A stretch of DNA of 64,000 nucleotides, taken from assembly GCF_006337125.1 (NCBI RefSeq), contig NZ_CP040887.1, forward strand, positions 2,852,001 through 2,916,000. The letters are read 5' to 3'. Of this stretch, positions 8,540 through 52,683 are shown piece after piece. Below the pieces are notes generated by a model that was not told where the DNA came from, did no database searches, and saw nothing but the letters and a program-made list of their open reading frames with translations. How positions within the stretch are numbered: the stretch's first letter is position 1; the number at the start of each line of letters is the position of its first letter. The position numbers were made by a program, and so were the translations under genes. This DNA is from Serinicoccus chungangensis (GTDB taxonomy: Bacteria > Actinomycetota > Actinomycetes > Actinomycetales > Dermatophilaceae).

Positions 8540-9079
8540 ATGAGCACCCGCAGCCGGCACGAGGCCCGCTGGACCGACGAGCGGTCGACGGCGAGCGGCC
8601 GTCTGCCGCGCAACCAGTGGTGGGTCCTTCCCGTCCTGCTGGCCGGCCTCGCGCTCGTCCTCTTCGTCGCGTGGCGCGTCTACAACGGTGTCGACACGGT
8701 GACCTACGAGGTGCGCCGGTGCGAGGCGCCGCTCACCGAGGACGCCAGCTGGAGCGAGGTGCAGGCAGCGGCCTGCGACCCCGTCGACGCGGCAGCCCTG
8801 CCCGCCTCGGTGGTGCTCATGCGCGGTGAGGAACCGGTCGAGCCGGACCTCACGGAGGGCGCGCTCCTCACGTGGGAGGGCTGGGCGGTCAACTCCCCCG
8901 AGCACAGCGTGCAGGTCCGTCTGGAGGACCCGGCGCAGACCATCGTCATCGCCGAGCCGACCAACGAGCGGGTGCGCACCGCGCTCACCCCCGACGCCGC
9001 GGACATCCGCTGGGGTGGCTTCATCGGCGGGCGTGGCCCCACGGAGTACTGGGTCCTCGTCACCCCCGCCGCGCGCTAG
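8540..9079 (+). CDS. Single-pass membrane protein of unknown function
   Basis: 179 aa. A basic cytoplasmic N-terminus (about 1-26), one membrane helix (about 27-47, WWVLPVLLAGLALVLFVAWRVY) and an extracytoplasmic domain of about 130 residues with two or three cysteines (C61, C77 region). I recognise no domain. The topology resembles small actinobacterial DUF4307-type proteins, but the sequence does not let me assert it. The stop codon is followed directly by a single copy of the GCACCGGACGC repeat described elsewhere; the purM gene ends 43 bp beyond on the other strand. Confidence 0.75.
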   Translation: MSTRSRHEARWTDERSTASGRLPRNQWWVLPVLLAGLALVLFVAWRVYNGVDTVTYEVRRCEAPLTEDASWSEVQAAACDPVDAAALPASVVLMRGEEPVEPDLTEGALLTWEGWAVNSPEHSVQVRLEDPAQTIVIAEPTNERVRTALTPDAADIRWGGFIGGRGPTEYWVLVTPAAR

Positions 9080-9082
9080 CCC

Positions 9083-9095
9083 GCACCGGACGCAC
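9083..9095 (+). repeat. Single copy of the GCACCRGACGCG 3'-end repeat
   Basis: GCACCGGACGCA begins 4 bp after the stop codon of the membrane protein gene and reads in that gene's sense direction. It matches 11 of 12 bases of the core found in arrays near 31.2, 46.4 and 52.5 kb. Confidence 0.55.
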
Positions 9096-9121
9096 GCGCG
9101 TGACGGCCGTGACGGCCGCAC

Positions 9122-10228
9122 TCAGCGCAGGTAGTCCCCCACGACCCGGACCGCCCCGCCGTCGACACCCTTGGCCCCCTGGACCACGCCCGGACCCGCA
9201 GCCGCCTCACCCGCCTGCTCGACGGTCCCCACCGGCCAGGTCGGTATGCCGTGCCCGTCCAGGAGGGCGACCGCCCGGTCGGCCACCGAGGGATGCACGA
9301 CGGCCACGAACCCCACCCCCATGTTGAGGGTCTGCTCCAGGTCGGCCAGCGGCACCTGCCCCAGCTCCTGGACCAGGGTGAAGATCGGCGGCAGCTGCCA
9401 CCCCCGTTCCACCGTCGCCAGCGTGCCCGAGGGCAGCACCCGAGCCAGGTTGGCGGCCAGCCCGCCACCGGTGACGTGCGAGAGGACGTGCAGGTCCGGC
9501 CCGAGCTCGCGGACCAGCTCGAGCAGCGGCCGGGTGTAGATGCGGGTCGGCTCCAGGCACTCCTCCCCCAGCGTCCGCCCGAGCTCGGGCACCTCGCGGT
9601 CCCAGCCCCACCCGGCTGCGGCGACGACGCGGCGGACCAGGGAGTAGCCGTTGCTGTGCAGGCCCGAGCTGGCCAGGGCCAGCACGACGTCCCCGTCGGC
9701 GACCCGCTGCGGACCCAGCACCTCGTCGTGCTCGACGACACCCGTCGCCGCCCCCGCGACGTCGTACTCCTCCGGATCGAGCAGACCGGGGTGCTCGGCG
9801 GTCTCGCCGCCCACGAGGGCGACGCCCGCCAGCTCGCAACCGCGCGCGATGCCCGAGACGATGGCCGCGATCCGCTCGGGCACCACCGTGCCGCAGGCGA
9901 TGTAGTCGGTCATGAAGAGCGGCTCGGCGCCGCTCACCACGATGTCGTCGACGACCATGCCGACGAGATCCTGGCCGATGGTGTCGTGGACGTCCATCGC
10001 CTGCGCGATGGCGACCTTGGTGCCGACCCCGTCGGTCGACGTGGCGAGGACGGGACGGCGCATACCCCGCAGCGCGGAGGCGTCGAACATCCCGGCGAAC
10101 CCGCCCAACCCCCCGAGGACCTCCGGGCGCTGCGCGCGCCGGACGGACTCCTTCATGAGCTCGACGGCGCGGTCGCCGGCGTGCACGTCGACGCCCGCGC
10201 TGGCATAGGTGATCGGCTGGTCGCTCAT
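9122..10228 (-). CDS. purM: Phosphoribosylformylglycinamidine cyclo-ligase
   Basis: 368 aa. Closes the imidazole ring in purine synthesis: FGAM plus ATP gives AIR, ADP and phosphate. TYASAGVDVHAGDRAVELMK is the standard PurM opening; STDGVGTK at about 64-71 and GGETAEHPGL are the ATP- and substrate-binding motifs, and SSGLHSNGYSLVRRV lies in the second domain. The length is normal for the family. The gene is the last of a minus-strand set running purF, sunset-domain protein, purM. The rare Ile codon ATA is used in GHGIPTW, inside a GGCATACC octamer. Confidence 0.97.
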   Translation of the reverse strand: MSDQPITYASAGVDVHAGDRAVELMKESVRRAQRPEVLGGLGGFAGMFDASALRGMRRPVLATSTDGVGTKVAIAQAMDVHDTIGQDLVGMVVDDIVVSGAEPLFMTDYIACGTVVPERIAAIVSGIARGCELAGVALVGGETAEHPGLLDPEEYDVAGAATGVVEHDEVLGPQRVADGDVVLALASSGLHSNGYSLVRRVVAAAGWGWDREVPELGRTLGEECLEPTRIYTRPLLELVRELGPDLHVLSHVTGGGLAANLARVLPSGTLATVERGWQLPPIFTLVQELGQVPLADLEQTLNMGVGFVAVVHPSVADRAVALLDGHGIPTWPVGTVEQAGEAAAGPGVVQGAKGVDGGAVRVVGDYLR

Positions 10229-10335
10229 GGCGGGTTCCCTCGGGCGTGGCAGCAGGTGGGCACCCCTAGGGTATGCCGAGCGCCGGGCCCCCGACGCCCG
10301 GCCCGGGTCGGTCGCCGCCCGCGGACGGCCCCGGG

Positions 10336-10941
10336 TCAGCCGTGCGCGTGCCGGAAGCCGGCGCGCTCAGCGGTCTCCGCGTCCACGAAGCACTCGTGGG
10401 CCTCGGCGTCGTAGCCCGCCTCGTCCGGCAGGACGAAGGTCATCGTGTCGTGCCAGGCCTTGACGGGGTGGCCCTCGGGGGCGGTCCCGTCGGCCTGCGG
10501 CGCCGCCGAGCCCCACCCGTGGCCACCGTCGCGGATCTCCTCCTCCGAGCTGCCCTCGCCTGCGCCAGACCCGTCCGCGCCAGACTCTGCCGAGCCACCC
10601 TCGGCCGTGGTCGACGACCCCGGCGCGGCGAGCATGCTCCGATCGGTCTCGAGCTCCTGCGGACCGTCCTCGTCGGCGGTCCAGTCGCCGGGCTGCCGGA
10701 ACTCCTCGCCGGCCTCCACGTCGTGGTCGGCCGGGTCGTGCTCCCGGGCGAACTCCTCCCGCCTGCGCCGGGCGTCCTCCTCGGACTCCTGCCGGGGGTC
10801 ACCCTCGTCGGTCTCGTCGGCGGACTCGTCCTCGGTCGTGTCCTCCGGCCCAGCGGGGTCGGGGCCGTCGGCGTCGTCGGGCTCGGCCGCGTCCCGGTCC
10901 TCGTCGGTCTCAGGCATGGTCTGGTCGTCGTGCTCGCTCAT
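10336..10941 (-). CDS. Acidic protein with C-terminal sunset domain
   Basis: 201 aa. The first 150 residues are low complexity and extremely acidic (Glu/Asp/Gly/Ser), predicted disordered. The last 45 residues form a recognisable unit: GHPVKAWHDTMTF, LPDEAGYDAEAHECFVDAE and TAERAGFR. This matches the small sunset domain (G-PVK-N...YH-P-...Y-...A..CF-..-AAE-AGFR) found at the C-terminus of many bacterial exported or DNA-related proteins. It lies between purF and purM with room for its own promoter, so it may be transcribed separately. Function unknown; a purine-related role would be inference from position only. Confidence 0.75.
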   Translation of the reverse strand: MSEHDDQTMPETDEDRDAAEPDDADGPDPAGPEDTTEDESADETDEGDPRQESEEDARRRREEFAREHDPADHDVEAGEEFRQPGDWTADEDGPQELETDRSMLAAPGSSTTAEGGSAESGADGSGAGEGSSEEEIRDGGHGWGSAAPQADGTAPEGHPVKAWHDTMTFVLPDEAGYDAEAHECFVDAETAERAGFRHAHG

Positions 10942-11206
10942 GGCGCCTCCACATCCCGGGTCGCCGACCCGTCGTCACGGACGGTAGACCTGCTCGCCCC
11001 GCCCCGCGCGGTGAAGTGCTCCTCCCGTCCCTGACACAGCCTGTGCACGCTCATGCAGCCTGTGCGGAGGTTCTACCGTGTGCCCAGGATGCACAAGGGT
11101 GCACAGGTATGCCTGGGGCTGGTGTGGCGTGCACAGGGTCCAGCCTCGTGCCAGGTCGAGCTCGTGACAGAAGGTCCAGGGGTGCGCGGGTCGGGGGCGG
11201 TGCGGG

Positions 11207-12814
11207 TCAGGGGCGGCGGACGGCGTCGGAGCCGCCGGCGCCGGCCGTGACGCCGACGTTGTCCATGTCGCGCGCCCCGCGGGCGCGGTCCACGTCGAGG
11301 GTGCCGACGTCGGTGGGGTCCGCCCCCTGGGTGTCGACCGGGAACTGCAGCTCCAGGACGTCCTTGCCGAGCTGGTCCTCACGGGGGAGCTCGATCGGGT
11401 AGTCACCGGTGAAGCAGGCGGTGCACAGCGAGGAGCGGGGCTGCTCGGTGGCCGCCACCATGCCCTCGGTGGAGATGTAGCCCAGCGAGTCCGCGCCCAG
11501 CGAGGCGCAGATGTCGGCGGGCTCCAGCCCGGTCGCGATGAGCTCGGCCCGGGTGGCGAAGTCGATGCCGTAGAAGCACGGCCAGCGGACCGGGGGCGAG
11601 GAGATCCGCACGTGCACCTCGGCCGCGCCCGCCTCGCGCAGCATGCGCACGAGCGCCCGCTGGGTGTTGCCGCGCACGATGGAGTCGTCCACCACCACGA
11701 GCCGCTTGCCCTTGATGACGTCGCGCAGGGGGTTGAGCTTGAGCCGGATCCCGAGCTGGCGGATCGTCTGGCTGGGCGCGATGAAGGTCCGCCCCACGTA
11801 GGCGTTCTTGACCAGCCCCTGGCCGTAGGGGATGCCGGACTCCTGCGCGTAGCCGATGGCGGCCGGCGTCCCCGACTCCGGGGTCGGCATGACCATGTCG
11901 GCGTCCACGGGGTGCTCGCGCGCGAGCTGGCGCCCCATCTCGACCCGGGAGTCGTAGACCTCGCGTCCGGCGATCGTCGTGTCGGGCCGCGCCAGGTAGA
12001 CCCACTCGAAGATGCACCGCCGGGGCTCCGGCTCCGCGAAGCGGCGCGAGCGCAGGCCGTTGTGGTCGATGGCGATGAGCTCGCCGGGCTCGACCTCGCG
12101 CACGACCGAGGCGCCCACGATGTCGAGCCCCGCGGTCTCGGAGGCGACGACCCACCCGCGCTCCAGCCGGCCGAGCACCAGGGGGCGCACCGCCTGGGGG
12201 TCGCGCGCGGCATACAGGGTGCTCTCGTCGCAGAAGACCAGGGAGAAGGCGCCGCGCAGCTGCGGCAGCACGCGCATGGCCGCCTCCTCCAGCGACAGGT
12301 CGGGGTCGGCGGTCAGCATCCCGGTCACGATCGCGGTGTCCGTGGTGTTGCCGCGCCCCACCTCCCCGGTCGAGCGCGCCAGGTCCCCGCCCAGCATCTC
12401 GCGCAGCACGTCGCGCAGCTCTGAGGTGTTGATGAGGTTGCCGTTGTGGGCCAGCGCCACGGTCCCCTCGGCGGTGCCCCCGAGGGTCGGCTGGGCGTTC
12501 TGCCAGGAGTTGCGTCCGGTCGTGGAGTAACGGCAGTGGCCGACGGCCAGGTGGCCCTGGAGGGAGGCGAGGGCCGACTCGTCGAAGACCTGGCTGACCA
12601 GGCCGACGTCCTTGTAGACCACGAGCCGCTGCCCGTCGCTCGTGGCGATGCCGGCAGCCTCCTGCCCGCGGTGCTGCAGGGCGTAGAGACCGTAGTAGGT
12701 GAGCTTGGCGACCTCCTCGCCGGGCGCCCACACCCCGAAGACGCCACAGGCGTCCTGAGGGAGACGCTCCTCGGGGAGGAGGTCGTGCGAGAGCCGTCCG
12801 TCAGCGCGAGCCAC
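11207..12814 (-). CDS. purF: Amidophosphoribosyltransferase
   Basis: 535 aa from the GTG at 12814. Commits PRPP and glutamine to purine synthesis. A propeptide of about 11 residues after DLLPEERLPQ precedes Cys23, the N-terminal nucleophile of the glutaminase after processing (DACGVFGVWAPGEEV). LVVVDDSIVRGNT is the PRPP-binding loop. CTACFTGDYPIELP near the C-terminus carries the CxxC of the [4Fe-4S]-type enzyme, as in Bacillus PurF. An ATG 36 bp upstream would add 12 residues, but actinobacterial homologues begin at the position of this GTG (ARADGRLSHDLLP). purM lies downstream on the same strand. Confidence 0.96.
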   Translation of the reverse strand: MARADGRLSHDLLPEERLPQDACGVFGVWAPGEEVAKLTYYGLYALQHRGQEAAGIATSDGQRLVVYKDVGLVSQVFDESALASLQGHLAVGHCRYSTTGRNSWQNAQPTLGGTAEGTVALAHNGNLINTSELRDVLREMLGGDLARSTGEVGRGNTTDTAIVTGMLTADPDLSLEEAAMRVLPQLRGAFSLVFCDESTLYAARDPQAVRPLVLGRLERGWVVASETAGLDIVGASVVREVEPGELIAIDHNGLRSRRFAEPEPRRCIFEWVYLARPDTTIAGREVYDSRVEMGRQLAREHPVDADMVMPTPESGTPAAIGYAQESGIPYGQGLVKNAYVGRTFIAPSQTIRQLGIRLKLNPLRDVIKGKRLVVVDDSIVRGNTQRALVRMLREAGAAEVHVRISSPPVRWPCFYGIDFATRAELIATGLEPADICASLGADSLGYISTEGMVAATEQPRSSLCTACFTGDYPIELPREDQLGKDVLELQFPVDTQGADPTDVGTLDVDRARGARDMDNVGVTAGAGGSDAVRRP

Positions 12815-12874
12815 GGGCCCATGGTCCCACAGTCCGCGGACCCGGCGCACCGCCCGCCGGGCCCCGGCGACGGG

Positions 12875-13090
12875 TCAGGAGCCCAGCCTCGGACGGTCGG
12901 CGACGAGGTAGGCCAGGGCGCCGACGGCGAACCCCGCACCCCCGCCGATGAGGATGAAGAGCAGGTACTCCTCCAGGCCGTTGACGTAGGGCACGTCCCG
13001 CCCGAGCGCCGCCACCAGCACCGCGATGACTGCGCCGACGACCGCGCCGGTCATGAGGAACCGCACCAGGTCGGGTCGACGCTGCTCCAC
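12875..13090 (-). CDS. Small two-helix membrane protein, paralogue 1
   Basis: 71 aa from a GTG at 13090. Two hydrophobic helices (RFLMTGAVVGAVIAVLVAAL and LLFILIGGGAGFAVGALAYLV) separated by a short acidic loop; basic N-terminus (VEQRRPDLVR). It starts 7 bp after the stop of the next upstream gene and resembles it in layout and in the opening (RRPxLxRFLxxGAxVGxV), so the two are likely a tandem duplication. No known family recognised. It precedes purF on the same strand by 60 bp and may be cotranscribed with it. Confidence 0.65.
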   Translation of the reverse strand: MEQRRPDLVRFLMTGAVVGAVIAVLVAALGRDVPYVNGLEEYLLFILIGGGAGFAVGALAYLVADRPRLGS

Positions 13091-13097
13091 GGGCGCG

Positions 13098-13352
13098 TCA
13101 GTCGCGCTCGGCGCGACGGTCGAGGACGAGGTAGACGACCGCGGCGGCGAGCCCGGCGAAGACGGCCCCGGTGGCGCCGAGGAGGATGACCTCCTGGCCG
13201 GCGCTGCTGCCGGGGGCATCGGGGCCGAGCAGCGAGATCACGGCGCCGACGACGAAGCCGACGAGCGCCCCGGCGACGAGGAAGCGGCTCAGCCGGGGCC
13301 GGCGCCGCACCGGCATCCGAATGGGTTCGTCCGAGGGGTCCGAGGGTGGCAC
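13098..13352 (-). CDS. Small two-helix membrane protein, paralogue 2
   Basis: 84 aa from a GTG at 13352 (an adjacent GTG at 13355 is possible). Basic N-terminus (RMPVRRRPRLSR) followed by FLVAGALVGFVVGAVISLL and, after a Gly/Ser loop, VILLGATGAVFAGLAAAVVYLVL. Same architecture as the downstream gene. The frame continues upstream without a good ribosome binding site, so the start is not certain. No function can be assigned. Confidence 0.65.
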   Translation of the reverse strand: MPPSDPSDEPIRMPVRRRPRLSRFLVAGALVGFVVGAVISLLGPDAPGSSAGQEVILLGATGAVFAGLAAAVVYLVLDRRAERD

Positions 13353-13440
13353 CACCCCAGTATCCGTCAGGACGCGGACCGGCGCGGCAGCCGGGTGGCT
13401 GCCGCGCCGGTGACCTCTCACGGCGACGAGGCGGGAGGGG

Positions 13441-19887: not shown

Positions 19888-19920
19888 GGCGTCCGGTGCG
19901 CCAGCGCGCGCGTCCGGTGC
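19888..19920 (-). repeat. Two copies of the GCACCRGACGCG 3'-end repeat
   Basis: Read on the minus strand, GCACCGGACGCG starts 2 bases after the stop codon of the HerA-like gene and is followed 21 bp later by GCACCGGACGCC. Same orientation relative to the preceding gene as at the other loci. Confidence 0.6.
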
Positions 19921-19922
19921 GG

Positions 19923-21533
19923 TCAGCGGCGGCGGGTGCCGAAGACCGAGCGGGTGATCTCGCGCCCGATGACGGTGCCCGCCGAGCGGAGCATCGACCG
20001 GAACGCGCCGGAGGACACGACCTGCTCGAGCACGCCCCCGTCCGTGTCCTCGCGCCGCCCGCCGTCACGTGAGCCGCGACGACCTCCAGCCGGTGCCGTC
20101 TCGGGGTCCTGGGCGGCCCGCTCCCGCGCGGCGACCTCGTCGGCCTCCTGCTGCTCCGCCGCCCGCGTCGCCGCCTCCATCCGCGCGGCGAGCATCTCGT
20201 GCGCGGACTCCCGGTCGAGCGCCTCGCCGTACCTGCCGGACAGGGAGGACCCGGCCACCGCCGTCCGCACGACCTCCTCCTCCGAGGGGCCGATCCGCGC
20301 CTGCGGTGCCCGGAGCATGGTGCGCGCGACGGGGGTGGGCGCGCCCTCCTCGGAGAGGACGGTGACGACCGCCTCGCCGGTGCGCAGCGAGGTCAGGACC
20401 TCGCCGAGGTCGTAGTCGCTCGTGGGGAAGGTCGACACGGTGGCCCTGAGCGCCTTGGCGTCGTTGGGCGTGTGCGCGCGCAGCGCGTGCTGGACCCGGT
20501 TGCCCAGCTGCGCGAGGATGGCGTCCGGCACGTCCGTGGGGGTCTGCGTGACGAAGAAGACGCCGACGCCCTTGGACCGGATGAGGCGCACCGCCTGCTC
20601 GACGGCGTCGAGGAAGGCGTCGGAGGCGTCGTCGAAGAGCAGGTGCGCCTCGTCGAGGACGAAGACCAGCGTCGGCCGCTCCGGGTCGCCGACCTCGGGC
20701 AGGTCCTGGAAGAGCTCGGCCAGCAGCCACATGAGGAAGGTGGAGAACAGCACCGGCCGGTCCCGCACCCCGGGCAGCTCGAGCAGCGTGATGACGCCCG
20801 CCCCGTCGGCGGTGGTGCGCAGCAGGTCGGCGGTCTCGAACTCCGGCTCGCCGAAGAAGACGTCTCCCCCGGCCGCGGACAGCCCGATGAGCTCGCGCAG
20901 GATGACTCCCGCCGTCGACGTGGCGATGCCGCCGAGCCCCTTGAGGTCCGCCCGCCCCTCGTCGGAGATGAGGTGCTGCGTGACGGCGATGAGGTCCTTG
21001 AGGTCCAGCAGCGCCAGCCCCTGCTGGTCGGCCCAGTAGAAGATGAGCCCCAGGCTGGACTCCTGGGTCTGGTTGAGCCCCAGCACCTTCGACAGCAGCG
21101 TCGGCCCGAAGCCGGTGACGGTGGCCCGCACCGGGTTGCCCACGCCGTGCCCGCCGAGGTTGAGCAGCTCGACCGGGTATGCCCTGGCCTCCCACTCCTG
21201 GTCCAGGTCGGCCATCCGCTCCGCGACCTTGCCCCCGCCCTCGGCCGCGGTGGCCAGCCCGGTCAGGTCGCCCTTGACGTCGGCGAGGAAGACCGGCACC
21301 CCGGCGTCGGAGAGCTGCTCGGCGAGCACCTGGAGCGTGACCGTCTTCCCGGTGCCGGTCGCCCCGGCGACCAGGCCGTGGCGGTTCATCGACCCCAGCG
21401 GCAGCCGGACGACCGCCTCGCCCACCACCTCGTCCCCGTCCGTGCCGACCGCGCCGCCCAGCGTGATGCTCGGCCCGGCGAAGGCATAAGCCTCCCGGAT
21501 GCGGTCGACCTGGCTGCTGCTCTGCTCGCTCAC
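19923..21533 (-). CDS. HerA-like ATPase, DUF853 family
   Basis: 536 aa. The Walker A motif GATGTGKT lies at 57-64 and Walker B as [12 protein letters not shown] near 250; RIREAYAF and [14 protein letters not shown] precede the P-loop, and [25 protein letters not shown] is the sensor region. This is the helicase HerA-like C-terminal/DUF853 family of hexameric ATPases, related to FtsK/HerA, with an unclear physiological role. The last 80 residues are a helical, charged tail with a basic end. GTG start at 21533; the frame stays open far upstream through two plus-strand genes, which is not credible. Divergent from the next gene with 24 bp between starts. Confidence 0.88.
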
Positions 21534-30355: not shown

Positions 30356-31150
30356 GTGACCGCCCACCCGTCGACCGCGCCCCGCATCAGCCGGCGGGTC
30401 GCCAAGCGCTACCTGCTCACCGACGAGCGGGTGGTCGTGTCGACCCGTTGGCACTGGGCCACACTCCTCAAGCCGGGGTTCGCCGTGGCCGTCGCCCTCT
30501 TCCTCACCCTGTGGGTGGCGGCGTCGGTGACCGAGCCGGCGGCGACCGGCATCGCGTTGTGCGTGCTCGCGGTCGTCTGCGCCTGGGCGGCGTGGCAGGT
30601 GCTGGAGTGGCGCTGCGAGTGGTTCATCGCGACCGACCGCCGGCTGCTCAAGACCTACGGCCTCATCACCCAGCGGGTGGCGATGATGCCGCTGGTCAAG
30701 GTCACCGACATGAGCTACGACCGCACCATCGCCGGTCGGCTCCTGGGCTACGGCCGCTTCGTCATGGAGTCCGCCGGCCAGGACCAGGCGCTGAGCCACA
30801 TCGACTACATCCCGCAGCCGGACGCGAAGTACCAGGCCATGTGCGAGACCATCTTCGGCCGCGACGTCCGCGACCCGGGCGAGGACGACGACGGGTGGGA
30901 CGACGAGGGGTATGCCGACGCCCCGGCCCCCGACCCCCGCGACGCGGGCCGGCGCTCGTGGGGCCAGGGCCAGGGCCACGACCGCGCGGGAGCGGGACGC
31001 CCGGTGACCGGGGAGCAGCGCCAGTGGGAGCCGGTCGACCCGGGCCAGCTGCCGTCGGACTGGGACTGGGAGGGTGAGACCCCCGGCTCCCGCCGGGCCC
31101 CCGCGCGGCGGCGGGTCGCGGTCGACCCGGACCCCACTCCCCTGCGCTGA
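30356..31150 (+). CDS. Membrane protein with bacterial PH domain (bPH2)
   Basis: 264 aa from GTG 30356. RRVAKRYLLTDERVVVSTRWHWATLLKP precedes two membrane helices (about 40-85), and then the bPH2 domain (WFIATDRRLLKTYGLITQRVAMMPLVKVTDMSYDRT, about 90-160). The C-terminal 100 residues are Asp/Gly/Arg-rich and predicted disordered, which is unusual in length for the YdbS-like family. Role unknown; bPH2 proteins are membrane-associated. Three 22-bp repeats start 19 bp after the stop codon. Confidence 0.85.
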   Translation: MTAHPSTAPRISRRVAKRYLLTDERVVVSTRWHWATLLKPGFAVAVALFLTLWVAASVTEPAATGIALCVLAVVCAWAAWQVLEWRCEWFIATDRRLLKTYGLITQRVAMMPLVKVTDMSYDRTIAGRLLGYGRFVMESAGQDQALSHIDYIPQPDAKYQAMCETIFGRDVRDPGEDDDGWDDEGYADAPAPDPRDAGRRSWGQGQGHDRAGAGRPVTGEQRQWEPVDPGQLPSDWDWEGETPGSRRAPARRRVAVDPDPTPLR

Positions 31151-31169
31151 CGCCACCACCCCGCTCCCC

Positions 31170-31235
31170 GCACAGGACGCACGGTCAGACCGCACCAGAC
31201 GCGCCACCAGACCGCACCAGACGCGCCTGGCGACC
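31170..31235 (+). repeat. Array of three 22-bp units with core GCACCRGACGCG
   Basis: Cores at 31170 (GCACAGGACGCA), 31192 (GCACCAGACGCG) and 31214 (GCACCAGACGCG), spaced exactly 22 bp; each unit ends in ACC. It lies in the sense direction just after the bPH2 gene stop and ends where the convergent gene stops. Confidence 0.75.
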
Positions 31236-44058: not shown

Positions 44059-46416
44059 ATGTCCTTCGGAGTGCTGCAGGTCCTCGCCATCGTCGTCGCG
44101 GGCCTGGTCACCCTGGCCGCGGTCGCCCTCTTCGTCCGCACCCTCGCCGCCTTCGTCGACCGGTTCCGGCTCGGGCAGCCCGAGACCCGCACGGACGCCC
44201 CTGGCCTGCGCACCTCGACGCTGCTGCGGGAGGTGCTGGGGCACACCCGGATGGCGCGCAAGCCCTGGGTCGCCGTGGCGCACTGGGTGGTCATGGTCTC
44301 CTTCGGCCTGCTCTTCCTCACCCTGGTCACCGCCTACGGCCAGCTGGTCGACCCGCACTTCGTGCTGCCCCTCATCGGGCACTTCTGGCCCTACGAGTGG
44401 CTGACCGAGCTCTTCGGCTGGGGCGCCGTGGTCGGCATCGTCGTTCTCGTCGTCGTGCGCCAGCGGGAGCACCCCCGGGCCCACGGCCGACGCTCCCGCT
44501 TCTGGGGGTCGACCTTCTGGCAGGCCTACGTCGTGGAGCTCGTCATCCTCGGCGTCGGCGTGTGCATCGTCGCGCTGCGCGCGCTGGAGTACGCCCTGGG
44601 CAGGGCCACCGGCGAGGAGTGGGCCAGCGCCCTGCACTTCCCGCTGACGGCCTGGCTCGGCGCGCCTCTGACGGGGGCGTCGGCCGCCACCCTCGAGGGT
44701 GGGATCATCGCGGTGGCGCTGCTGAAGATCCTCATCTCCATGGCGTGGATGATCATCATCGCCCGCACCCCGACGATGGGCGTCGCCTGGCACCGCTTCC
44801 TCGCCTTCTTCAACATCTGGTTCCGTCGCCACCCGGAGGGCGCGACGTCGCTCGGCGCGGTGCAGCCCATCCGGGTCGCGGGCGAGACGGTGGACTTCGA
44901 GAACATCGAGGAGCTCGACGAGGACGCCGCCCTGGGCGTCGGCAAGGTCGAGGACTTCACCTGGAAGGGGCTGCTCGACTTCTCCACCTGCACCGAGTGC
45001 GGCCGCTGCCAGGAGCAGTGCCCGGCCTGGCACACCGACAAGCCGCTCTCGCCCAAGATGCTCGTCAAGAACCTGCGCGACCAGCACCACGCCGTCGCCC
45101 CGTGGCTGCAGGCGGGCCAGGAGCACCGGGAGGCCGCCGCGAAGGCGCTGGAGTCGGCCGGCGGCCCGGGGGCCGAGGGGTTGCCCGAGCAGCTGCACGG
45201 CATCCCCACGACCGCGGTCATCGCGGCTCAGCGCCCGCTGGTCGGCGAGACCGAGGGCGACCCCACCGTGCCCGACGGCGGTGGCGTCATCGACCCGGAG
45301 GTCCTCTGGTCCTGCACCACCTGCGGCGCCTGCGTCGAGCAGTGCCCCGTCGACATCGAGCACGTGGACGCGATCGTCGACATGCGGCGCTACCAGAACC
45401 TCATCGAGTCGGCCTTCCCCTCCGAGCTGGGCGGCCTGTTCAAGAACCTCGAGAACAAGGGCAACCCGTGGGGCATGAACGCCCGGCTGCGGATGGACTG
45501 GGCCAAGGACCTCGACTTCGACATCCCCGTGGTGGGCGAGGACCTCGAGAGCCTCGCCGAGATGGACTACCTCTTCTGGGTCGGCTGCGCCGGCGCGTTC
45601 GAGGACCGCGCCAAGAAGACGACGCGCGCGGTGGCCGAGCTGCTGCACACCGCCGGGGTGAGCTTCGCGGTGCTCGGCGACGGCGAGAGCTGCACCGGCG
45701 ACCCGGCGCGGCGCAGCGGCAACGAGTTCCTCTTCCAGATGCTCGCCCTGCAGAACGTCGAGGTCCTGACCGAGGTGGGCGCGACCAAGATCGTCGTGAC
45801 CTGCGCGCACTGCTTCAACACGCTGAAGAACGAGTACCCCCAGGTCGGCGGGCAGTTCGAGGTCGTCCACCACACCCAGCTGCTCAACCGGCTGGTGCGC
45901 GAGAAGCGGCTCACCCCGGTCTCCCGGCCGGACGCCGCGGACACGGCGGGGGCCGCCTCGACCGCGGAGTCGGTGACCTACCACGACCCGTGCTACCTCG
46001 GCCGGCACAACCAGGTCTACGCCCCGCCGCGCGAGCTCATCGGTGCGCTGCCCGGCGTCCAGCTCACCGAGATGCCGCGGCACGGGGAGAAGTCCTTCTG
46101 CTGCGGCGCCGGCGGCGCCCGCATGTGGATGGAGGAGAAGCTCGGGACCCGCATCAACCTCAACCGCACCGAGGAGGCGCTGGCCACCGGCGCGGACCGG
46201 ATCGCGATCGGCTGCCCCTTCTGCCGGGTGATGCTCTCCGACGGCCTCACCCAGAAGCAGGCCGAGGGCGCCCGCGAGGAGGTCGAGGTCGTCGATGTGG
46301 CCCAGATGCTGCTCGCCGCCGTCCGGCGCGCCCAGCCCGCCACCCCCGACACCGACACCGACGACACCGCCCCCACCGACGACGCAGCCGGGTCCCCGGC
46401 ACCGGACGCGCGCTAG
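44059..46416 (+). CDS. Membrane Fe-S reductase (heterodisulfide reductase-like, Rv0338c type)
   Basis: 785 aa. Five or six hydrophobic helices in the first 250 residues resemble the heme-b anchor of respiratory reductases. Two ferredoxin clusters follow: CTECGRCQEQCP (from Cys311) and CTTCGACVEQCP (from Cys419). The C-terminal half has CCG-type motifs of HdrD/GlpC proteins: WVGCAG, CAHCFNTLKNEY, DPCYLGRHN and CCGAGGARMW. Probably passes electrons between the quinone pool and an unknown partner. The mycobacterial homologue is essential by transposon studies. It stands alone. Its last codons form the first unit of a 22-bp repeat pair. Confidence 0.9.
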   Translation: MSFGVLQVLAIVVAGLVTLAAVALFVRTLAAFVDRFRLGQPETRTDAPGLRTSTLLREVLGHTRMARKPWVAVAHWVVMVSFGLLFLTLVTAYGQLVDPHFVLPLIGHFWPYEWLTELFGWGAVVGIVVLVVVRQREHPRAHGRRSRFWGSTFWQAYVVELVILGVGVCIVALRALEYALGRATGEEWASALHFPLTAWLGAPLTGASAATLEGGIIAVALLKILISMAWMIIIARTPTMGVAWHRFLAFFNIWFRRHPEGATSLGAVQPIRVAGETVDFENIEELDEDAALGVGKVEDFTWKGLLDFSTCTECGRCQEQCPAWHTDKPLSPKMLVKNLRDQHHAVAPWLQAGQEHREAAAKALESAGGPGAEGLPEQLHGIPTTAVIAAQRPLVGETEGDPTVPDGGGVIDPEVLWSCTTCGACVEQCPVDIEHVDAIVDMRRYQNLIESAFPSELGGLFKNLENKGNPWGMNARLRMDWAKDLDFDIPVVGEDLESLAEMDYLFWVGCAGAFEDRAKKTTRAVAELLHTAGVSFAVLGDGESCTGDPARRSGNEFLFQMLALQNVEVLTEVGATKIVVTCAHCFNTLKNEYPQVGGQFEVVHHTQLLNRLVREKRLTPVSRPDAADTAGAASTAESVTYHDPCYLGRHNQVYAPPRELIGALPGVQLTEMPRHGEKSFCCGAGGARMWMEEKLGTRINLNRTEEALATGADRIAIGCPFCRVMLSDGLTQKQAEGAREEVEVVDVAQMLLAAVRRAQPATPDTDTDDTAPTDDAAGSPAPDAR

Positions 46417-46442
46417 GTCCGCACCGGACGCGCGTTCGTGCC
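46399..46442 (+). repeat. Two 22-bp units with core GCACCGGACGCG over the Fe-S reductase stop
   Basis: Exact cores at 46399-46410 and 46421-46432, 22 bp apart. The first covers the last codons before TAG (46414-46416). CGGAC and GTCCG in and between the units can pair into a small hairpin around the stop codon. Confidence 0.75.
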
Positions 46443-47590: not shown

Positions 47591-47614
47591 GTCCCCTGCT
47601 TCCTGCTTGTGCGG

Positions 47615-48937
47615 TCACGGCGTCACGCCCGCCAGCACGTCGGCGAGGATCGCCACGCCACGGGAGGCGTCCTCGTCGGTGATCACGCACGGCGGCACCA
47701 GGTGCACGCGGTTGGCCACGATCAGCGGCCACATCCCCCGCTCCACGCAACCAGCCTGCACCGCCTTCATGATCTCACCGGAGGCCGGTTCGCGCGAGGC
47801 CTGGTCGGCGACGAGCTCGACGACCCAGAACACCCCGAGCCCCCGCACATCGCCCACCAGCGGGTTCGTGCCGAGCAGCGCCGTCGCGGCCGGGCCCAGG
47901 CTGCGCTCCCCCACCTGCGCGGCGTGCTCGACGATCCCCTCCTCACGCATGATGGTGATCGCGGCGACGGCCGACGCGGTGGCGAGGGCGTGGCCGGAGT
48001 AGGTCAGGCCGCCCGGGAAGGGCCGCTCGTCGAAGGTCGCCGCGACCCGGTCGTCGATGACGACGCCGCCGAGCGGGACATACCCCGAGTTCACCCCCTT
48101 GGCGAAGGTGATGAGGTCGGGCCGCACCCCGAAGTGGTCCAGGGCGAACCACGCCCCGGTCCGTCCGAAGCCGGCCATGACCTCGTCGAGGATGAGCAGG
48201 ATGCCGAACTCGTCGCACAGCGCCCGCACCCCGGGCAGGTAGCCGGGCGGCGGCACGAGGATGCCGTTGGACCCGACGACGGTCTCCAGGATGATCGCGG
48301 CCACCTGGCCCGGCCCCTCCGCTTCGAGGGTGTGCCGCAGGTGCAGCAGGGCGCGCTCGCTCTCCTCCTCCTGGGTGGTGGCGTGGAACTCGCTGCGGAA
48401 CAGGTGCGGGCCCCAGAAGTGGACCACCCCCGGGATGCCCGGCTCGCCGCCCCACCGCCGGGCCTCGCCGGTCAGGGTGATCGCCCCGGCCGTGCCCCCG
48501 TGGTAGCTGCGGTAGGACGCCAGGACCTTGTGCCGCCCGGTGTGCGCCCGGGCCATGCGCAGGGCGTTCTCGTTGGCCTCGGCCCCGCCGTTGGTGAAGA
48601 AGACCTTGCTCATGCCCTCCGGCGCCAGCCCCGAGATGAGGGCCGCGGCCTCGGCCCGGCTCTCCTCCGCGAACGCCGGGGCGACCGTGGTCAGCCGCCC
48701 GGCCGCCTCGGCGACGGCGGCCGACAGGCGCGGGTGCTGGTAGCCGATGTTGACATTCACCAGCTGGGAGGAGAAGTCGAGGAACCGACGGCCCTGGTGG
48801 TCCCAGAAGTAGGCGCCCTCGCCGCCGGCCAGCGGCACCGGGTCGATCGCCCGCTGGGCCGACCAGGAGGTCATGACGTGCGTGCGGGAGAGCTCCCGGA
48901 TCCGGGCGTCGCGGGCGGGGTCGGCAGTGGTCGTCAT
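47615..48937 (-). CDS. Class III aminotransferase (omega-transaminase type)
   Basis: 440 aa. PLP enzyme of the aspartate aminotransferase superfamily subgroup II. FWDHQGRRFLDFSSQLVNVNIGYQHPRL, FTNGGAEANENALRMAR, SYRSYHGGTAGAITLTGE, LDEVMAGFGRTGAWFALDHF and LITFAKGVNSGYVPLGG (PLP lysine) are present. Typical substrates are beta-alanine, 4-aminobutyrate or diamines with pyruvate; nothing nearby fixes it. ATG at 48937. Confidence 0.92.
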   Translation of the reverse strand: MTTTADPARDARIRELSRTHVMTSWSAQRAIDPVPLAGGEGAYFWDHQGRRFLDFSSQLVNVNIGYQHPRLSAAVAEAAGRLTTVAPAFAEESRAEAAALISGLAPEGMSKVFFTNGGAEANENALRMARAHTGRHKVLASYRSYHGGTAGAITLTGEARRWGGEPGIPGVVHFWGPHLFRSEFHATTQEEESERALLHLRHTLEAEGPGQVAAIILETVVGSNGILVPPPGYLPGVRALCDEFGILLILDEVMAGFGRTGAWFALDHFGVRPDLITFAKGVNSGYVPLGGVVIDDRVAATFDERPFPGGLTYSGHALATASAVAAITIMREEGIVEHAAQVGERSLGPAATALLGTNPLVGDVRGLGVFWVVELVADQASREPASGEIMKAVQAGCVERGMWPLIVANRVHLVPPCVITDEDASRGVAILADVLAGVTP

Positions 48938-49001
48938 GGGAGCGACTCTAGGACAGCCGCACCCCTGGTGCCCGCAGCGCGCGGACGGCAGGATGGGGGG
49001 C

Positions 49002-50633
49002 ATGGCACAGGCGCTGGCCCATACCACCGGGGTCGCCGAACCCCCGCTGCTCGAGCAGACCATCGGGGACAACCTCGACGAGACCGCCCACCGGCACCCC
49101 GACCGGGAGGCGCTGGTCGAGGTCTCCACCGGCCGCCGCTGGACGTATGCCGAGCTCGTCGGCGACGTCAACCTGGTCGCCCGGGCGCTCGTCGCCTCCG
49201 GGGTGCGCACCGGTGACCGGGTCGGCATCTGGGCACCGAACTGCGCCGAGTGGACCCTGGTGCAGCTGGCGACCGCCAAGGTCGGAGCCATCCTCGTCAC
49301 CATCAACCCGGCCTACGGCACCCGCGAGCTGGCCTACGTGCTGCGGCAGTCGGGGGCGAGCACGGTCGTCGTCGCCCAGGAGTTCCGGGGCAGTGCCTAC
49401 CCGGAGATGGTCGAGCGCGTGCGCGGTGAGTGCCCCGACCTGGCCCAGGTGCTCGTCATCGGGGGCGAGGGGTGGGACGACGTCCTCTCCGGGGCGCACC
49501 AGGTCAGCCCCGGACGCCTCGCGGAGCTGCAGGCGACGCTCACCCCGGACCAGCCCATCAACATCCAGTACACCTCCGGCACCACCGGCTTCCCCAAGGG
49601 CGCGACGCTCTCCCACCGCAACATCCTCAACAACGGGTTCTTCGTCGGGGAGGGGTGCCGCTACACCGAGCGCGACGTCATCTGCATACCCGTGCCGTTC
49701 TACCACTGCTTCGGGATGGTCATGGGCACGCTGGCGGCGACCACGCACGGCGCCTGCATGGTCATCCCGGGCCCCGGGTTCGACCCCGCCGCGACCCTGC
49801 GGGCGGTGCGGGACGAGCAGTGCACCTCCCTCTACGGCGTGCCGACGATGTTCATCGCCATGCTGGAGCTGCTCGACACCGACGACGAGCTCACCACCGA
49901 GGACCTGGCCTCGGTCCGCACCGGGATCATGGCAGGGTCACCCTGCCCGGCATCGGTCATGCGCTCGCTCATCCAGGCCGGCGTCGAGGAGATGACGATC
50001 TGCTACGGCATGACCGAGACCTCGCCGGTCTCCACGCAGACCGCCCCGGACGACCCCTTCGACAGGAAGGTCGGCACGGTCGGACGGGTGGGGCCGCATC
50101 TGGAGATCCAGATCGTCGACCCCACGACGCGCGAGGTCCTGCCGCGCGGGGTCGCCGGGGAGTTCTGCACCCGGGGCTACTCGGTCATGCTCGGCTACTG
50201 GGAGGACCCGGAACGCACCGCCGAGGTCCTGCGGGACGGGTGGATGGCGACCGGCGACCTCGGGGTGATGGACGACGAGGGGTATGTCGAGATCACCGGC
50301 CGCATCAAGGACCTCGTCATCCGGGGCGGGGAGAACATCTCGCCCCGGGAGGTGGAGGAGGTGCTCTACACCCACCCCGACGTGCTCGACGCGCAGGTCG
50401 TGGGGGTGCCGGACGAGCGCTACGGCGAGGAGCTCATGGCCTGGGTGCGGCTCCGGGAGGGCGCCGAGCCGCTCACCCGGGAGGCCGTGGAGGAGTTCTG
50501 CTCCGGGTCGCTCGCCCGCTACAAGATCCCGCGGCACGTCCAGGTCGTCGAGGACTTCCCCATGACCGTCACGGGCAAGGTGCGCAAGGTCGAGCTGCGC
50601 GAGCGCGGCGCGGAGCTGCTGCGCGGCCGCTGA
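49002..50633 (+). CDS. AMP-binding acyl-CoA ligase (FadD/ACSF2-like)
   Basis: 543 aa. ANL superfamily. Motif A5/P-loop YTSGTTGFPKGATLSH, IPVPFYHCFGMVMG, YGMTETSPVST (A5) and YVEITGRIKDLVIRGGENISPREVEE (A8) with the catalytic lysine in VTGKVRKVEL. Activates a fatty or branched acid to its CoA thioester. Starts at ATG 49002, or at 48993 with three more residues. Followed by a tandem repeat and an SDR gene on the same strand. An acyl-CoA dehydrogenase starts at 63508, but the two are not close enough to form an operon. Confidence 0.92.
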   Translation: MAQALAHTTGVAEPPLLEQTIGDNLDETAHRHPDREALVEVSTGRRWTYAELVGDVNLVARALVASGVRTGDRVGIWAPNCAEWTLVQLATAKVGAILVTINPAYGTRELAYVLRQSGASTVVVAQEFRGSAYPEMVERVRGECPDLAQVLVIGGEGWDDVLSGAHQVSPGRLAELQATLTPDQPINIQYTSGTTGFPKGATLSHRNILNNGFFVGEGCRYTERDVICIPVPFYHCFGMVMGTLAATTHGACMVIPGPGFDPAATLRAVRDEQCTSLYGVPTMFIAMLELLDTDDELTTEDLASVRTGIMAGSPCPASVMRSLIQAGVEEMTICYGMTETSPVSTQTAPDDPFDRKVGTVGRVGPHLEIQIVDPTTREVLPRGVAGEFCTRGYSVMLGYWEDPERTAEVLRDGWMATGDLGVMDDEGYVEITGRIKDLVIRGGENISPREVEEVLYTHPDVLDAQVVGVPDERYGEELMAWVRLREGAEPLTREAVEEFCSGSLARYKIPRHVQVVEDFPMTVTGKVRKVELRERGAELLRGR

Positions 50634-50671
50634 GCCGGCCCGACCGGGCGCCGCCGGCCCGACCGGGCGCC
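50634..50671. repeat. Exact 19-bp tandem duplication
   Basis: GCCGGCCCGACCGGGCGCC occurs twice, end to end, right after the acyl-CoA ligase stop. Each copy contains GCCCG and CGGGC as a short hairpin. Confidence 0.75.
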
Positions 50672-50731
50672 ACACCTGGCTCTCCCCCGGGCCGGCCGTG
50701 CGCCGCACCTCGGTGCTGGCAGGATCAGCAC

Positions 50732-51502
50732 ATGAGCCTGGACTACGCACAGATGTTCCGTCTCGACGGCCGGCACGCCGTGGTCGTCGGGTGCGGGGGG
50801 ATCGGCGCCGAGATCGTCGCCGGCCTCGCGGCCCAGGGCGCGCGGGTGAGCTGCCTCGACCGGGACCCGGGGGTCGCCCGAGCGGCGCTGGAGCGCGCGC
50901 CGGGAGGGGCGGGACACCCCGTCGACGTGCTGGACACCGACGCGCTCGCGGAGTGCGCGGCGCGGCTCGGCGACGTCGACGTGCTGGTGCTCACCGCCGC
51001 GATGAACGTCCGCAAGCGGCTGCTGGACTACACCGCCGAGGAGTTCGACCGCGTCGTGGACCTCAACCTGCGGGGCACCTTCCAGGCGGTGCGCGCCTTC
51101 GCCCCGGGGATGGTCGAGCGAGGGGCCGGGTCCGTCGTCGCGCTGACCTCGATCCGTGCCGTGACCGTCGAGCCCGGGCAGGGGGTGTACGCCGCGACCA
51201 AGGCCGGCGTGATGCAGCTGGTGCGCACGTGGGCGGCCGAGCTCGGGCCGGCCGGGGTGCGCATCAACGCGGTCGCGCCGGGGGTCGTGGCGACCCCGCT
51301 GACGCAGCAGATCCGCGACGACGCGGACTGGGACAGGGCGTATGCCGAGAAGTCGGCGCTGGGTCGCTGGGCGCGCCCGGAGGAGATGGTCGGGGCGGTC
51401 GCCTGGCTGGCCTCGGACGCGGCGAGCTTCGTCACCGGCACCCAGGTGATGGTCGACGGCGGGTGGACGGCGATCGACGGGCGGTTCACGCCGCCCGGGT
51501 GA
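50732..51502 (+). CDS. Short-chain dehydrogenase/reductase (SDR)
   Basis: 256 aa. Rossmann fold with the catalytic set Ser (ALTSIRAV), Tyr and Lys (YAATKAG), and a closing LASDAASFVTGTQVMVDGGW. The cofactor loop is VVVGCGGIGAEI, one residue shorter than the usual TGxxxGIG of classical SDRs, which may change NAD(P) binding. Substrate not identified. The gene follows the acyl-CoA ligase with 98 bp between, including a tandem repeat. Confidence 0.87.
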   Translation: MSLDYAQMFRLDGRHAVVVGCGGIGAEIVAGLAAQGARVSCLDRDPGVARAALERAPGGAGHPVDVLDTDALAECAARLGDVDVLVLTAAMNVRKRLLDYTAEEFDRVVDLNLRGTFQAVRAFAPGMVERGAGSVVALTSIRAVTVEPGQGVYAATKAGVMQLVRTWAAELGPAGVRINAVAPGVVATPLTQQIRDDADWDRAYAEKSALGRWARPEEMVGAVAWLASDAASFVTGTQVMVDGGWTAIDGRFTPPG

Positions 51503-51582
51503 GCCGCGGCGAGCCACCGGGCGACGCCGGGGGCCGTCCTGGTCCGGGCGGCCGCGCGGGGGCCGGGCCGGCCGGGCCGGGG

Positions 51583-52467
51583 TCAGGAGAAGACGATGGT
51601 GCGGCCGGAGCGCAGCACGACACGGTGCTCGGCGTGCCAGCCAATGGCCCGCGAGAAGGCGGTCGCCTCGACCTCCTGGCCCTGCTGCGCGAGCTGGGCC
51701 GGGGTCAGCCGGTGGTCCACCCGACGGAAGTCCTGCTCGATGATCGGGCCCTCGTCCAGGTCGGCCGTGACGTAGTGCGCGGTGGCGCCGATGACCTTGA
51801 CGCCACGGTCGTGCGCCTGGGTGTAGGGCTTGGCTCCCTTGAAGCTCGGCAGCAGCGAGTGGTGGATGTTGATGATGCGGCCCGAGTAGTCCGCGCACAT
51901 CGCGGGTGAGAGCACCTGCATGTAGCGCGCCAGGGCGATGGTGTCGATGTCGTGGCTCTCGACGATCTCGCGGAGGCCGGCCTCGGCGTCGGCCTTGGTG
52001 TCGGGCGTGACCGGCAGGTGGTGGAACGGGATGTCGTGCCACTCCGCGAGCGCCCGGAAGTCCTCGTGGTTGGACACGATGGCCGGGATGGTCACGGGCA
52101 GCTGTCCGGTGCGGGTGCGGAAGAGCAGGTCGTTGAGGCAGTGCCCCATCTTGCTCACCATGACGAGCAGGCGGTGGGGCTCGGCCCGGTCGTGCACCTG
52201 CCACTGCCCGTCGAGCCCGTCCGCCACGTCGGCCAGCCCCGCACGCAGCTCCTCGATCGCGACGGGGGACCCCTCGCGGGTCGCCTCCATCCGCAGGTGG
52301 AACTCCCCCGTGCTCGGGTCGGCGAACTGCTGGCTCTCGGTGATCGTCAGGTCGTGCTCGAGCATCGCCCCGGACACCGCGTGCACCACGCCCCGGCGGT
52401 CGGGGCAGGACAGGGTGAGGACGACGTCGCGGCCGCTCTCGGCCGGCGCAGAGGTATGCAGTGCCAC
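51583..52467 (-). CDS. purU: Formyltetrahydrofolate deformylase
   Basis: 294 aa from GTG 52467. N-terminal ACT domain (LTLSCPDRRGVVHAVSGAMLEHDLTITESQQFADP...FHLRME, about 10-85), then the formyl transferase domain: VSKMGHCLNDLLFRTR, NHEDFRALAEWHDIPFHHLPV, INIHHSLLPSFKGAKPY (catalytic His) and VTADLDEGPIIEQD (catalytic Asp). Releases formate from 10-formyl-THF. Tied to purine synthesis and to balance of one-carbon units. It lies after a repeat array in front of the P1 peptidase gene. Confidence 0.95.
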   Translation of the reverse strand: MALHTSAPAESGRDVVLTLSCPDRRGVVHAVSGAMLEHDLTITESQQFADPSTGEFHLRMEATREGSPVAIEELRAGLADVADGLDGQWQVHDRAEPHRLLVMVSKMGHCLNDLLFRTRTGQLPVTIPAIVSNHEDFRALAEWHDIPFHHLPVTPDTKADAEAGLREIVESHDIDTIALARYMQVLSPAMCADYSGRIINIHHSLLPSFKGAKPYTQAHDRGVKVIGATAHYVTADLDEGPIIEQDFRRVDHRLTPAQLAQQGQEVEATAFSRAIGWHAEHRVVLRSGRTIVFS

Positions 52468-52493
52468 GCCGGGCGAGTCTACGTGGTGACGGC

Positions 52494-52625
52494 GCCCTCC
52501 GGTGCGGCCGGACCACGCGTCCGGTGGGGCCGGACCACGCGTCTGGTGGGGCCGGACCACGCGTCCGGTGCGATCGGACGACGCGTCCGGTGCGATCGGA
52601 CCGCGCGTCTGGTGCGATCGCGGTC
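52494..52625 (-). repeat. Array of six 22-bp units with core GCACCRGACGCG
   Basis: Read on the minus strand the cores begin 22 bp apart (positions of the plus-strand CGCGTCYGGTGS cores: 52516, 52538, 52560, 52582, 52604, with a partial sixth at 52494). Units alternate in the linker (GGTCCGGCC or GGTCCGATC) and several can fold as CCGGAC-GCGTG-GTCCGG. The array fills the space after the P1 peptidase stop up to purU. Confidence 0.85.
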
Positions 52626-52683
52626 AGGGGCGGGTCAGGGGCGGGTCAGGGGCGGGTCGAGGTCGCGGTACGGGTCAGGGGCG
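52622..52683 (-). repeat. 11-bp repeats that copy the end of the P1 peptidase gene
   Basis: CGCCCCTGACC (minus strand) occurs in three exact tandem copies at 52622, 52633 and 52644, and once at 52673 where it contains the peptidase stop codon. The same 11-mer marks the end of purF at 11207. Confidence 0.7.

Follow-up and report, generated by a model that had tools for sequence, protein, structure and literature searches.

The 64,000-nucleotide stretch of Serinicoccus chungangensis DNA considered here (the window; G000:C1:2852001-2916000, from a genome of 3.46 Mb in one contig, G000) carries a 22-bp repeat at five loci close to stop codons. The repeat is real and genome-wide and the pattern is solid, and the data suggest bacterial satellite DNA of a family not previously described, as opposed to a chance motif. 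There is about an even chance that the family is what we favour, namely a dispersed non-coding satellite comprising a leader and direct units, in which the core of each unit is a putative protein site used chiefly as a roadblock at transcript ends. The original prediction, made from the window alone, stands as regards a dispersed, non-CRISPR family with a 3' sense bias and no fitting named relative, but has little support as regards its proposed hairpin, and it overlooked the stop codon in the first unit of some arrays, the C-rich leader, the inheritance of arrays at orthologous loci and the existence of sister families.

Abundance and distribution of the repeat

The exact core, GCACCRGACGCG, is present in 124 copies in the whole 3.46-Mb genome, divided 61 to 63 between the strands, compared with 9 copies of the reversed pattern, and tandem pairs at 22 bp number 136 compared with 1 for the reversed control. 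When up to two mismatches are allowed, the 12-mer is not enriched in the window (55 found versus 70.2 expected), hence the window by itself could mislead; the signal lies in the exact core and its spacing, not in the loose 12-mer.

A scan of 31 genomes of the genus for tandem pairs at 22 bp, with at most two mismatches, revealed pairs in seven: G039 (177), G017 (144), G000 (136) and G044 (99), with smaller numbers in G043 (21), G004 (7) and G021 (1), and none in the other 24. Reversed controls gave 0 throughout, except for the single pair in G000. Among 38 genomes compared for the exact core (G000, 23 other members of the genus and 14 from other families of the order), counts lay far above control only in G000 (124) and G017 (99), and more weakly so in G012 (24 versus 9), a genome with no tandem pair at 22 bp. 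Across 396 genomes of the order, searched with up to one mismatch, matches were confined to G000 and one place in G196, the latter being rejected as a family member since it overlaps a called open reading frame (ORF) and has the look of a chance hit. When the genomes of named species were scanned for runs of three exact units with a 22-bp period, 36 stretches were returned; S. chungangensis CD08_5, S. sediminis GP-T3-3 and uncultured Serinicoccus 2B2-67 together contributed 35 of these, the window's own genome perhaps having been excluded. A lone three-unit array, GCACCGGACGCGGCACCGGGAC, was observed in Streptomyces flavofungini (L098:2555-2640), in sense and 1 nt past a TGA, and is possibly of independent origin. 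Searches of phage, plasmid and viral contigs, with one query each, gave no match.

Orientation and anchoring at stop codons

Gene ends were taken from a simple codon-usage caller trained on long ORFs, and individual ends may err. The G000 stretches examined contain 49 arrays of at least two units, nearly all with a 22-bp period; this is fewer than the genome total, one further pair lying near 3303850 outside these stretches, and excludes single exact copies, of which the examined stretches contain 5 within called genes and 2 in intergenic DNA. Thirty-five of the 49 follow a stop codon in sense, 23 between convergent and 12 between co-directional genes, the remainder comprising 8 antisense arrays, 2 between divergent genes, 2 within a called ORF and 2 at the edge of a stretch. 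Counting by orthologous group, one of which merges several loci, gave 40 of 51 in sense, 7 antisense, 2 divergent and 2 other, while the 119 arrays of five species divide into 89 sense, 18 antisense, 3 divergent, 3 within a called ORF and 6 at an edge. The claim that the repeat always reads in the same sense as the gene just ended is therefore correct for the five window loci but amounts, genome-wide, to a strong tendency. Copies are not scattered without regard to stop codons or strand, and the family was rightly described as dispersed and favouring the 3' side of genes in sense.

Measured from the end of the stop codon, the 89 sense arrays of the five species begin at -18 in 24 cases, at 0 to +4 in 24 and beyond 5 in 41. 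An array beginning at -18 supplies the stop as the sixth codon of its first unit, and the proteins concerned mostly end in APDAR, APDAS, APDAP or APDAT, with AQDAR and PPDAR as variants. In G000, the stop codon lies inside unit 1 in 10 of the 35 sense arrays, is TAG and closes a protein ending in APDA-X; where the stop is elsewhere TGA dominates (22 TGA, 3 TAG), the usage for all genes being 310 TGA, 42 TAG and 1 TAA.

Anatomy of the unit and its leader

The majority consensus of 145 G000 units is GCACCGGACGCG-Y-G-S-T-C-N-G-G-N-C, with positions 2, 4, 8 and 9 invariant among these units, which were themselves recognised by the core. The linker is repeated within any one array and differs among arrays. 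Such recurrence of the 10-bp linkers, together with the absence of unique spacers, rules out a CRISPR array, in agreement with the original prediction.

The spacers between stop codon and array (15 in G000, 6-60 nt) have a mean C/(C+G) of 0.82, as against 0.53 in 130 array-free gene ends, for which the initial 16 nt were taken, and values of at least 0.7 are found in 14 of the 15 spacers versus 13% of the control ends. In the 20 nt preceding arrays, which are partly coding in some classes and have no coding control, C/(C+G) is 0.72 for arrays whose unit 1 contains the stop, 0.70 at gaps of 0-5, 0.77 at larger gaps and 0.74 for antisense arrays, compared with 0.45-0.52 in the 20 nt behind arrays. 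Since the C-rich stretch is present also ahead of antisense arrays and not behind arrays, the leader looks like a part of the element rather than of the gene.

Orthologous loci and turnover

The window and its surroundings, some 80 kb in all, include seven places (A to G) that have arrays in G000 and in at least two of G017, G039 and G044, with the same orientation and from 0 to 10 units, and two more G000 array places are located near the end of this stretch. The place of array A, for example, holds 5 units in G044 and 6 in G017, and orthologues of locus D keep the stop codon inside unit 1. Genome G043 retains 0 to 2 units at places A to G, and the 22-bp family was not found in G011 over the same 80 kb. 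Among the loci examined, 36 of the 51 orthologous groups (one a merger of several loci) span at least two species; this is a lower bound, the G039 and G044 sets consisting of three-unit scan matches plus syntenic stretches. The comparison of copy number among sister species that the original prediction had called for thus revealed common loci with differing unit numbers and linkers. Between the first units of orthologous arrays (76 pairs, after removal of any group in which a species had several arrays) mismatches amount to 0.043 per site in the core versus 0.213 per site in the linker.

Concatenation of 28 proteins (9284 columns) yielded a tree which, rooted on G011 as the most distant of the six genomes, gave G000,(G043,(G039,G044)) with G017 joined to G011 and bootstraps of 99, 83 and 100. 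With this root G043 is nested within the array-bearing group, and so it most likely lost its arrays, a loss that the remnants support. At locus C, the array-less gene end of G039 was seen to be almost identical to that of G011, which suggests that the array was replaced there via recombination between species. Sixteen G011 orthologues without arrays were compared: 6 terminate at the identical residue by a stop of their own and one ends in RE where the G000 protein has APDAR; the remaining ends have diverged or the alignment stops short.

Sister families in the genus

Several other tandem families are present in the genus. One has a 32-bp unit, CACCGRGCGYCGC-NN-ATGGTYG-N10, of which G011, a genome lacking the 22-bp family, has 223 pairs; pairs of this family number 62 in G043, 42 in G044, 41 in G017, 34 in G039 and 16 in G021, with fewer in G040 (6), G000 (3) and G007 (2). 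The remaining 22 of the 31 genomes have none, and controls gave 0. Within 480 kb of G011, 21 arrays of this family divide into 7 convergent in sense, 5 co-directional in sense, 6 antisense and 3 divergent, and two G011 arrays start at the stop itself (TGACCGAGCGCC). A further 22-bp family, ACCGGACACG, has 20 pairs in G002 (at most one mismatch; controls 0) and 1-6 in seven other genomes, where it is partly mixed with the ACCGGACGCG core. A 23-bp family, ACCGGSRACACGGTCTG, is represented by 53 pairs in G002 and 45 in G041, and a second 32-bp family, ACCGAGCGCGTCGGGTGGCGAGAT, by 13 in G010 and 10 in G023, again with controls of 0. The head ACCGRRCRCG is common to several of the genus families.

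In a census of intergenic tandem repeats, periods of 22, 23, 32 and 52-54 bp accounted for 85 of 156 arrays in the genus versus 1 of 35 outside it, where stretches of 20 genomes were covered; the periods were picked after the data had been seen, most of the genus count comes from the two Serinicoccus families, and two of the 54-bp arrays have no sequence relationship. The density of arrays is not uniformly high, G021 having 0 and G007 1 in 60 kb each. A Rayleigh test of eight family periods against 10.5 bp gave p ~0.0035, or 0.024 once related families were merged, and helical phasing of the periods is suggestive only, the families and periods having been chosen by the analyst.

Three further families were recognised by eye, in samples only. 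One is a 32-bp CGARACC family. Repeats of 30 bp occur at L207:6120-6247 and L207:14714-14801 (G010) and at L215:13369-13481 (G014), flanked by the inverted ends GGGGGACGTGACATTGGTG / CACCAATGTCACGTCCCCC at both places in G010 and by degenerate ends in G014, an arrangement resembling a miniature inverted-repeat element that encloses a satellite. The third, a palindromic tandem family of 52 bp, GAGGAT.GGTGCACGCGCACC.ATCCTC, forms five intergenic arrays in G011 stretches (L158, L176, L182 and L193), and a similar 53-bp unit is present in G006 (L233:11617-11801). In addition, GTCCTCNNNNNNGAGGAC repeats of 33/42 bp, which may be coding or intergenic, lie at L208:15457-15772 (G012).

The proposed roadblock model and its rivals

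According to the model we favour, the element consists of a C-rich leader and 1 to 11 direct units, each made of a conserved 12-bp core (head CACCGGACGCG), the putative recognition site, and a 10-bp variable linker, such that cores recur every two helical turns or so, and about every three in the 32-bp sister family. Seeding, by some mechanism, would take place mostly at gene 3' ends and usually in sense, an insertion sometimes displacing the native stop codon so that the unit's own TAG is used. Each array, passed down together with its locus, has since gained and lost units and become uniform in place, in the manner of unequal exchange. The core would be retained because a sequence-specific DNA-binding protein recognises it, this being either a mobilising protein or one bound as a phased row at transcript ends, where, substituting for a hairpin terminator, it may block RNA polymerase in an orientation-dependent way. 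Recognition of double-stranded DNA, with an asymmetric core presented at near whole-turn spacing on one face of the helix, is the most plausible mode. The dispersal, the period, the leader, the anchoring at stop codons with its exceptions, the common loci, the turnover in copy number, the near-collapse in one species, the sister families and the absence of RAYT are observed, whereas we infer the binding protein, mobility and the roadblock function. Rows of protein-binding sites downstream of a gene, able to halt polymerase from one direction, are familiar from the Sal-box / TTF-I terminators of eukaryotic ribosomal DNA, a comparison drawn for how such a system works and not for homology, the Serinicoccus protein being hypothetical.

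In its favour are the excess of exact cores (124 versus 9) and the tandem pairs in 7 of 31 genomes, the loci common to several species, the slower change of core than of linker, the lack of compensatory changes, the leader, the near-collapse in nested G043, the G011 proteins that end at the equivalent residue with native stops, and the concentration of a few periods within the genus. A number of observations weigh against this model. The 8 antisense and 2 divergent arrays among the 49 are awkward for a strict terminator, and the 32-bp sister family is less bound to stop codons, 12 of its 21 arrays being in sense. Moreover, uniform placement in the available spacer would put 12.9 of the 35 sense arrays of G000 at -18 to +4, and 18 are found there, so that short spacers account for a good part of the closeness to stop codons. 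Conservation of the core is inflated by the fact that arrays were detected by it, and the loss of most arrays from G043 means that they are dispensable. The loci compared yielded no example of a cleanly empty site bearing a target duplication, and neither a binding protein nor a mobilising enzyme was found. Folding energies fall below z = -2 in 13 of 48 arrays in sense and 8 of 48 in antisense, and the best 36-nt hairpins at convergent ends score -19.1 with arrays (n=42) versus -21.1 without (n=52). The notion that arrays substitute for absent hairpins was rejected, there being no clear difference in hairpin strength between ends with and without arrays. At some single loci, array-less relatives carry hairpins behind the stop, as judged by eye.

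Ranked close behind the roadblock model, although itself somewhat doubtful, is a purely selfish repeat of REP/MIRU type with no role for the host, which lands where the harm is least, just behind stop codons, and whose core is kept only for recognition by a mobilising enzyme. Its patchy occurrence in 7 of 31 genomes, the lineage-specific spelling and the near-collapse in G043 are all consistent with this, as are the heterogeneous neighbours, with no Pfam family matching more than 2 of 35 upstream proteins and hence no shared upstream function apparent. Against it, fixed periods of 22 or 32 bp and a C-rich leader are unnecessary for mere survival, many arrays occupy the same loci across species with scant sign of current jumping, and the Y1/RAYT transposase (PF01797) was found in 0 of the 31 genus genomes, while 5 of 14 control genomes were positive. 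Five genes with arrays on both sides were considered as candidates for a mobilising enzyme and rejected: two have no Pfam match and the others encode an acetyltransferase, a protein with a weak glyoxalase match and a DUF2516 protein.

An element of the 3' untranslated region acting as RNA, in which a unit or a facing pair of arrays folds to form a terminator or a barrier to RNase, is improbable. The 35 of 49 arrays lying in sense after stops, the 13 of 48 with z below -2 in that strand and the facing + and - arrays at several places, which could pair, argue for such an element, as does a perfect inverted repeat that, by eye, occupies the place of array E in G039. Yet the CCGGAC-loop-GTCCGG hairpin that had been proposed for some units gains little support from the 414 units analysed: only 20% can form the central pair 6-18 and 52% the pair 9-15, a stem of at least 6 bp is present in 82, and changes in the core find no compensation in the linker, position 19 remaining G in 49 of 51 units in which C5 is A and never becoming T. 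Compared with shuffles, the 48 arrays gave a mean z of -0.87 in sense and -0.51 in antisense, and 8 arrays are antisense in any case. Comparably poor prospects attach to a Rho-dependent terminator, for which the C-rich, G-poor leader would be the Rho loading site and the array a pause region. The leader is situated suitably, between stop codon and array, and has the right composition (0.82 versus 0.53), but a similar one (0.74) precedes antisense arrays, outside that gene's transcript, and the leader is translated where the stop falls inside unit 1. Finally, selection for APDA-X as a C-terminal peptide tag, for example a degradation or localisation signal, is very improbable in spite of the same stop place in unit 1 recurring in 24 of 89 sense arrays, in five species and on unrelated proteins, and being retained by the locus D orthologues, given that 65 of the 89 lie entirely behind the stop, that later units are untranslated and that TAG is encountered in just a single reading frame of unit 1 out of three, which can account for the fixed distance.

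To return to the roadblock model, its boldest extension, a genus-wide repeat-and-protein system in which a protein diversifying by lineage binds phased rows behind stop codons, terminates transcription by roadblock and spreads its own sites without RAYT or hairpins, is rather unlikely.

Repeat loci in the window

Inspection of the window DNA located the five loci where they had first been noted, all five oriented along the gene just terminated and with 22-bp spacing at three of them, the pair at 19888-19920 being the exception at 21 bp (Table 1). The prediction that each element begins within about 0-50 bp of a stop codon held at most loci, but the array at 46399 begins before its stop and the first unit of that at 52494 begins 59 nt past the stop of its own gene. 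Unit 1 of array D, GCACCGGACGCGCGCTAG, contains the TAG of the gene at 44059-46416. In the region 52616-52690, CGCCCCTGACC was seen four times, as an 11-bp repeat that includes the gene's own stop codon. An Rfam search of the window at gathering score left the repeat unmatched, the only matches being six tRNAs and the small signal recognition particle RNA.

Table 1. Repeat arrays in the window, with their upstream genes and leaders.
Feature	Position	Strand	Details
Gene upstream of array A	8540..9079	+	No Pfam match; ends TAG
Array A	9083..9104	+	Single 22-bp unit with 1 core mismatch; 3 nt past TAG
HerA-like helicase gene	19923..21533	-	Upstream of array B; ends TGA
Array B	19888..19920	-	Two units, spacing 21 bp; 2 nt past TGA
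Bacterial PH-domain (bPH_2) gene	30356..31150	+	Upstream of array C; ends TGA
Leader of array C	31151..31169	+	C-rich and G-poor, CGCCACCACCCCGCTCCCC; from stop to array
Array C	31170..31235	+	Three units, spacing 22 bp
Iron-sulphur / cysteine-rich domain protein gene	44059..46416	+	TAG within unit 1 of array D; C-terminus ...SPAPDAR
Array D	46399..46442	+	Two units, spacing 22 bp; begins 18 nt before the stop codon's end
Peptidase S58 family gene	52675..53766	-	Upstream of array E; ends TGA
Leader of array E	52616..52674	-	C-rich; repeated CGCCCCTGACC
Array E	52494..52615	-	Six units, spacing 22 bp; last degenerate (3 mismatches)

Comparison with known repeats

A named family that fits was sought in the literature and none was found, as the original prediction had anticipated; the matches listed include no description of this repeat, and the only paper among them that contains the 12-mer concerns a Mycobacterium regulator. 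The ends of Tn7/Mu-type transposons, which have 22-bp sites, were considered as a further candidate comparison. REPs are short, dispersed extragenic repeats located mostly downstream of genes, between convergent or co-directional ones; GTAG REPs often supply the TAG stop to a flanking ORF, and several families can coexist (Di Nocera et al. 2013, PMC3733652). The same source describes REPs as palindromes with a tag at one end, and CGTC families as having stems of 8-9 bp in mainly head-to-head arrangement, with head-to-tail negligible, and apparently no dedicated transposase; "Actinobacteria" does not appear in its main text. The Serinicoccus repeat resembles REP and BIME elements in being of high copy number, extragenic and mostly downstream of genes, resembles GTAG REPs in that unit 1 provides a TAG stop, and, like REPs, is accompanied by coexisting families. 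It differs in that its units are poor palindromes in direct tandem, with a fixed period and a C-rich leader, and in the absence of a RAYT domain from the genus genomes. Neither RAYT nor the combination of palindrome and tag was recovered: GTAG is present in 24 of 414 units and a stem of at least 6 bp in 82, while GACG (CGTC on the other strand) occupies positions 7-10 in 397 of 414 units, internally and not beside a stable stem.

MIRUs form tandem arrays and are actinobacterial. In the account consulted they are dispersed, apparently mobile and anchored to gene boundaries along the direction of translation, inserting at start codons with a coupled ORF (PMC12548453). Unlike these, the Serinicoccus unit is of 22 or 32 bp and most arrays are anchored by the stop codon, no separate search for coupled ORFs having been made. 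Direct TAACTGA repeats of Beggiatoaceae, in about 170 dispersed sets that each hold 2-6 copies and follow no functional class of genes, have a 7-bp unit that lies mostly just upstream of start codons and occurs across distant phyla (PMC4679880); the Serinicoccus repeat likewise forms dispersed sets with no pattern in gene function, but has a 22-bp unit anchored at stops. Related non-coding tandem arrays at many loci are, moreover, the hallmark that it has in common with dispersed prokaryotic satellites. A survey of these in 142 archaea and 119 bacteria recorded spread families of long repeats (>30 nt) in just two species, Leptospira interrogans and Methanocella conradii, and short-repeat spread families for a few genera, the words "stop codon" being absent from the paper (Subirana and Messeguer 2019, PMC6749651). 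The best reading of the repeats is that they belong to a fast-evolving, undescribed satellite superfamily of REP/MIRU-like character.

Significance

Spread non-coding satellites of long repeats are called rare in the 261-prokaryote survey (PMC6749651). The one genus considered here appears to hold several dispersed families, with fixed periods of 22 or 32 bp, a leader of strand-asymmetric composition and anchoring at stop codons. Given that neighbouring species have the family expanded, nearly collapsed or absent, both spread without RAYT and a role at gene ends are testable by comparison of near neighbours. If the genus-wide system outlined above were true, it would be a bacterial counterpart of tandem-site terminators. 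At the least, the arrays provide variable-number markers for the genus and explain the recurrent APDA-X ends of its proteins.

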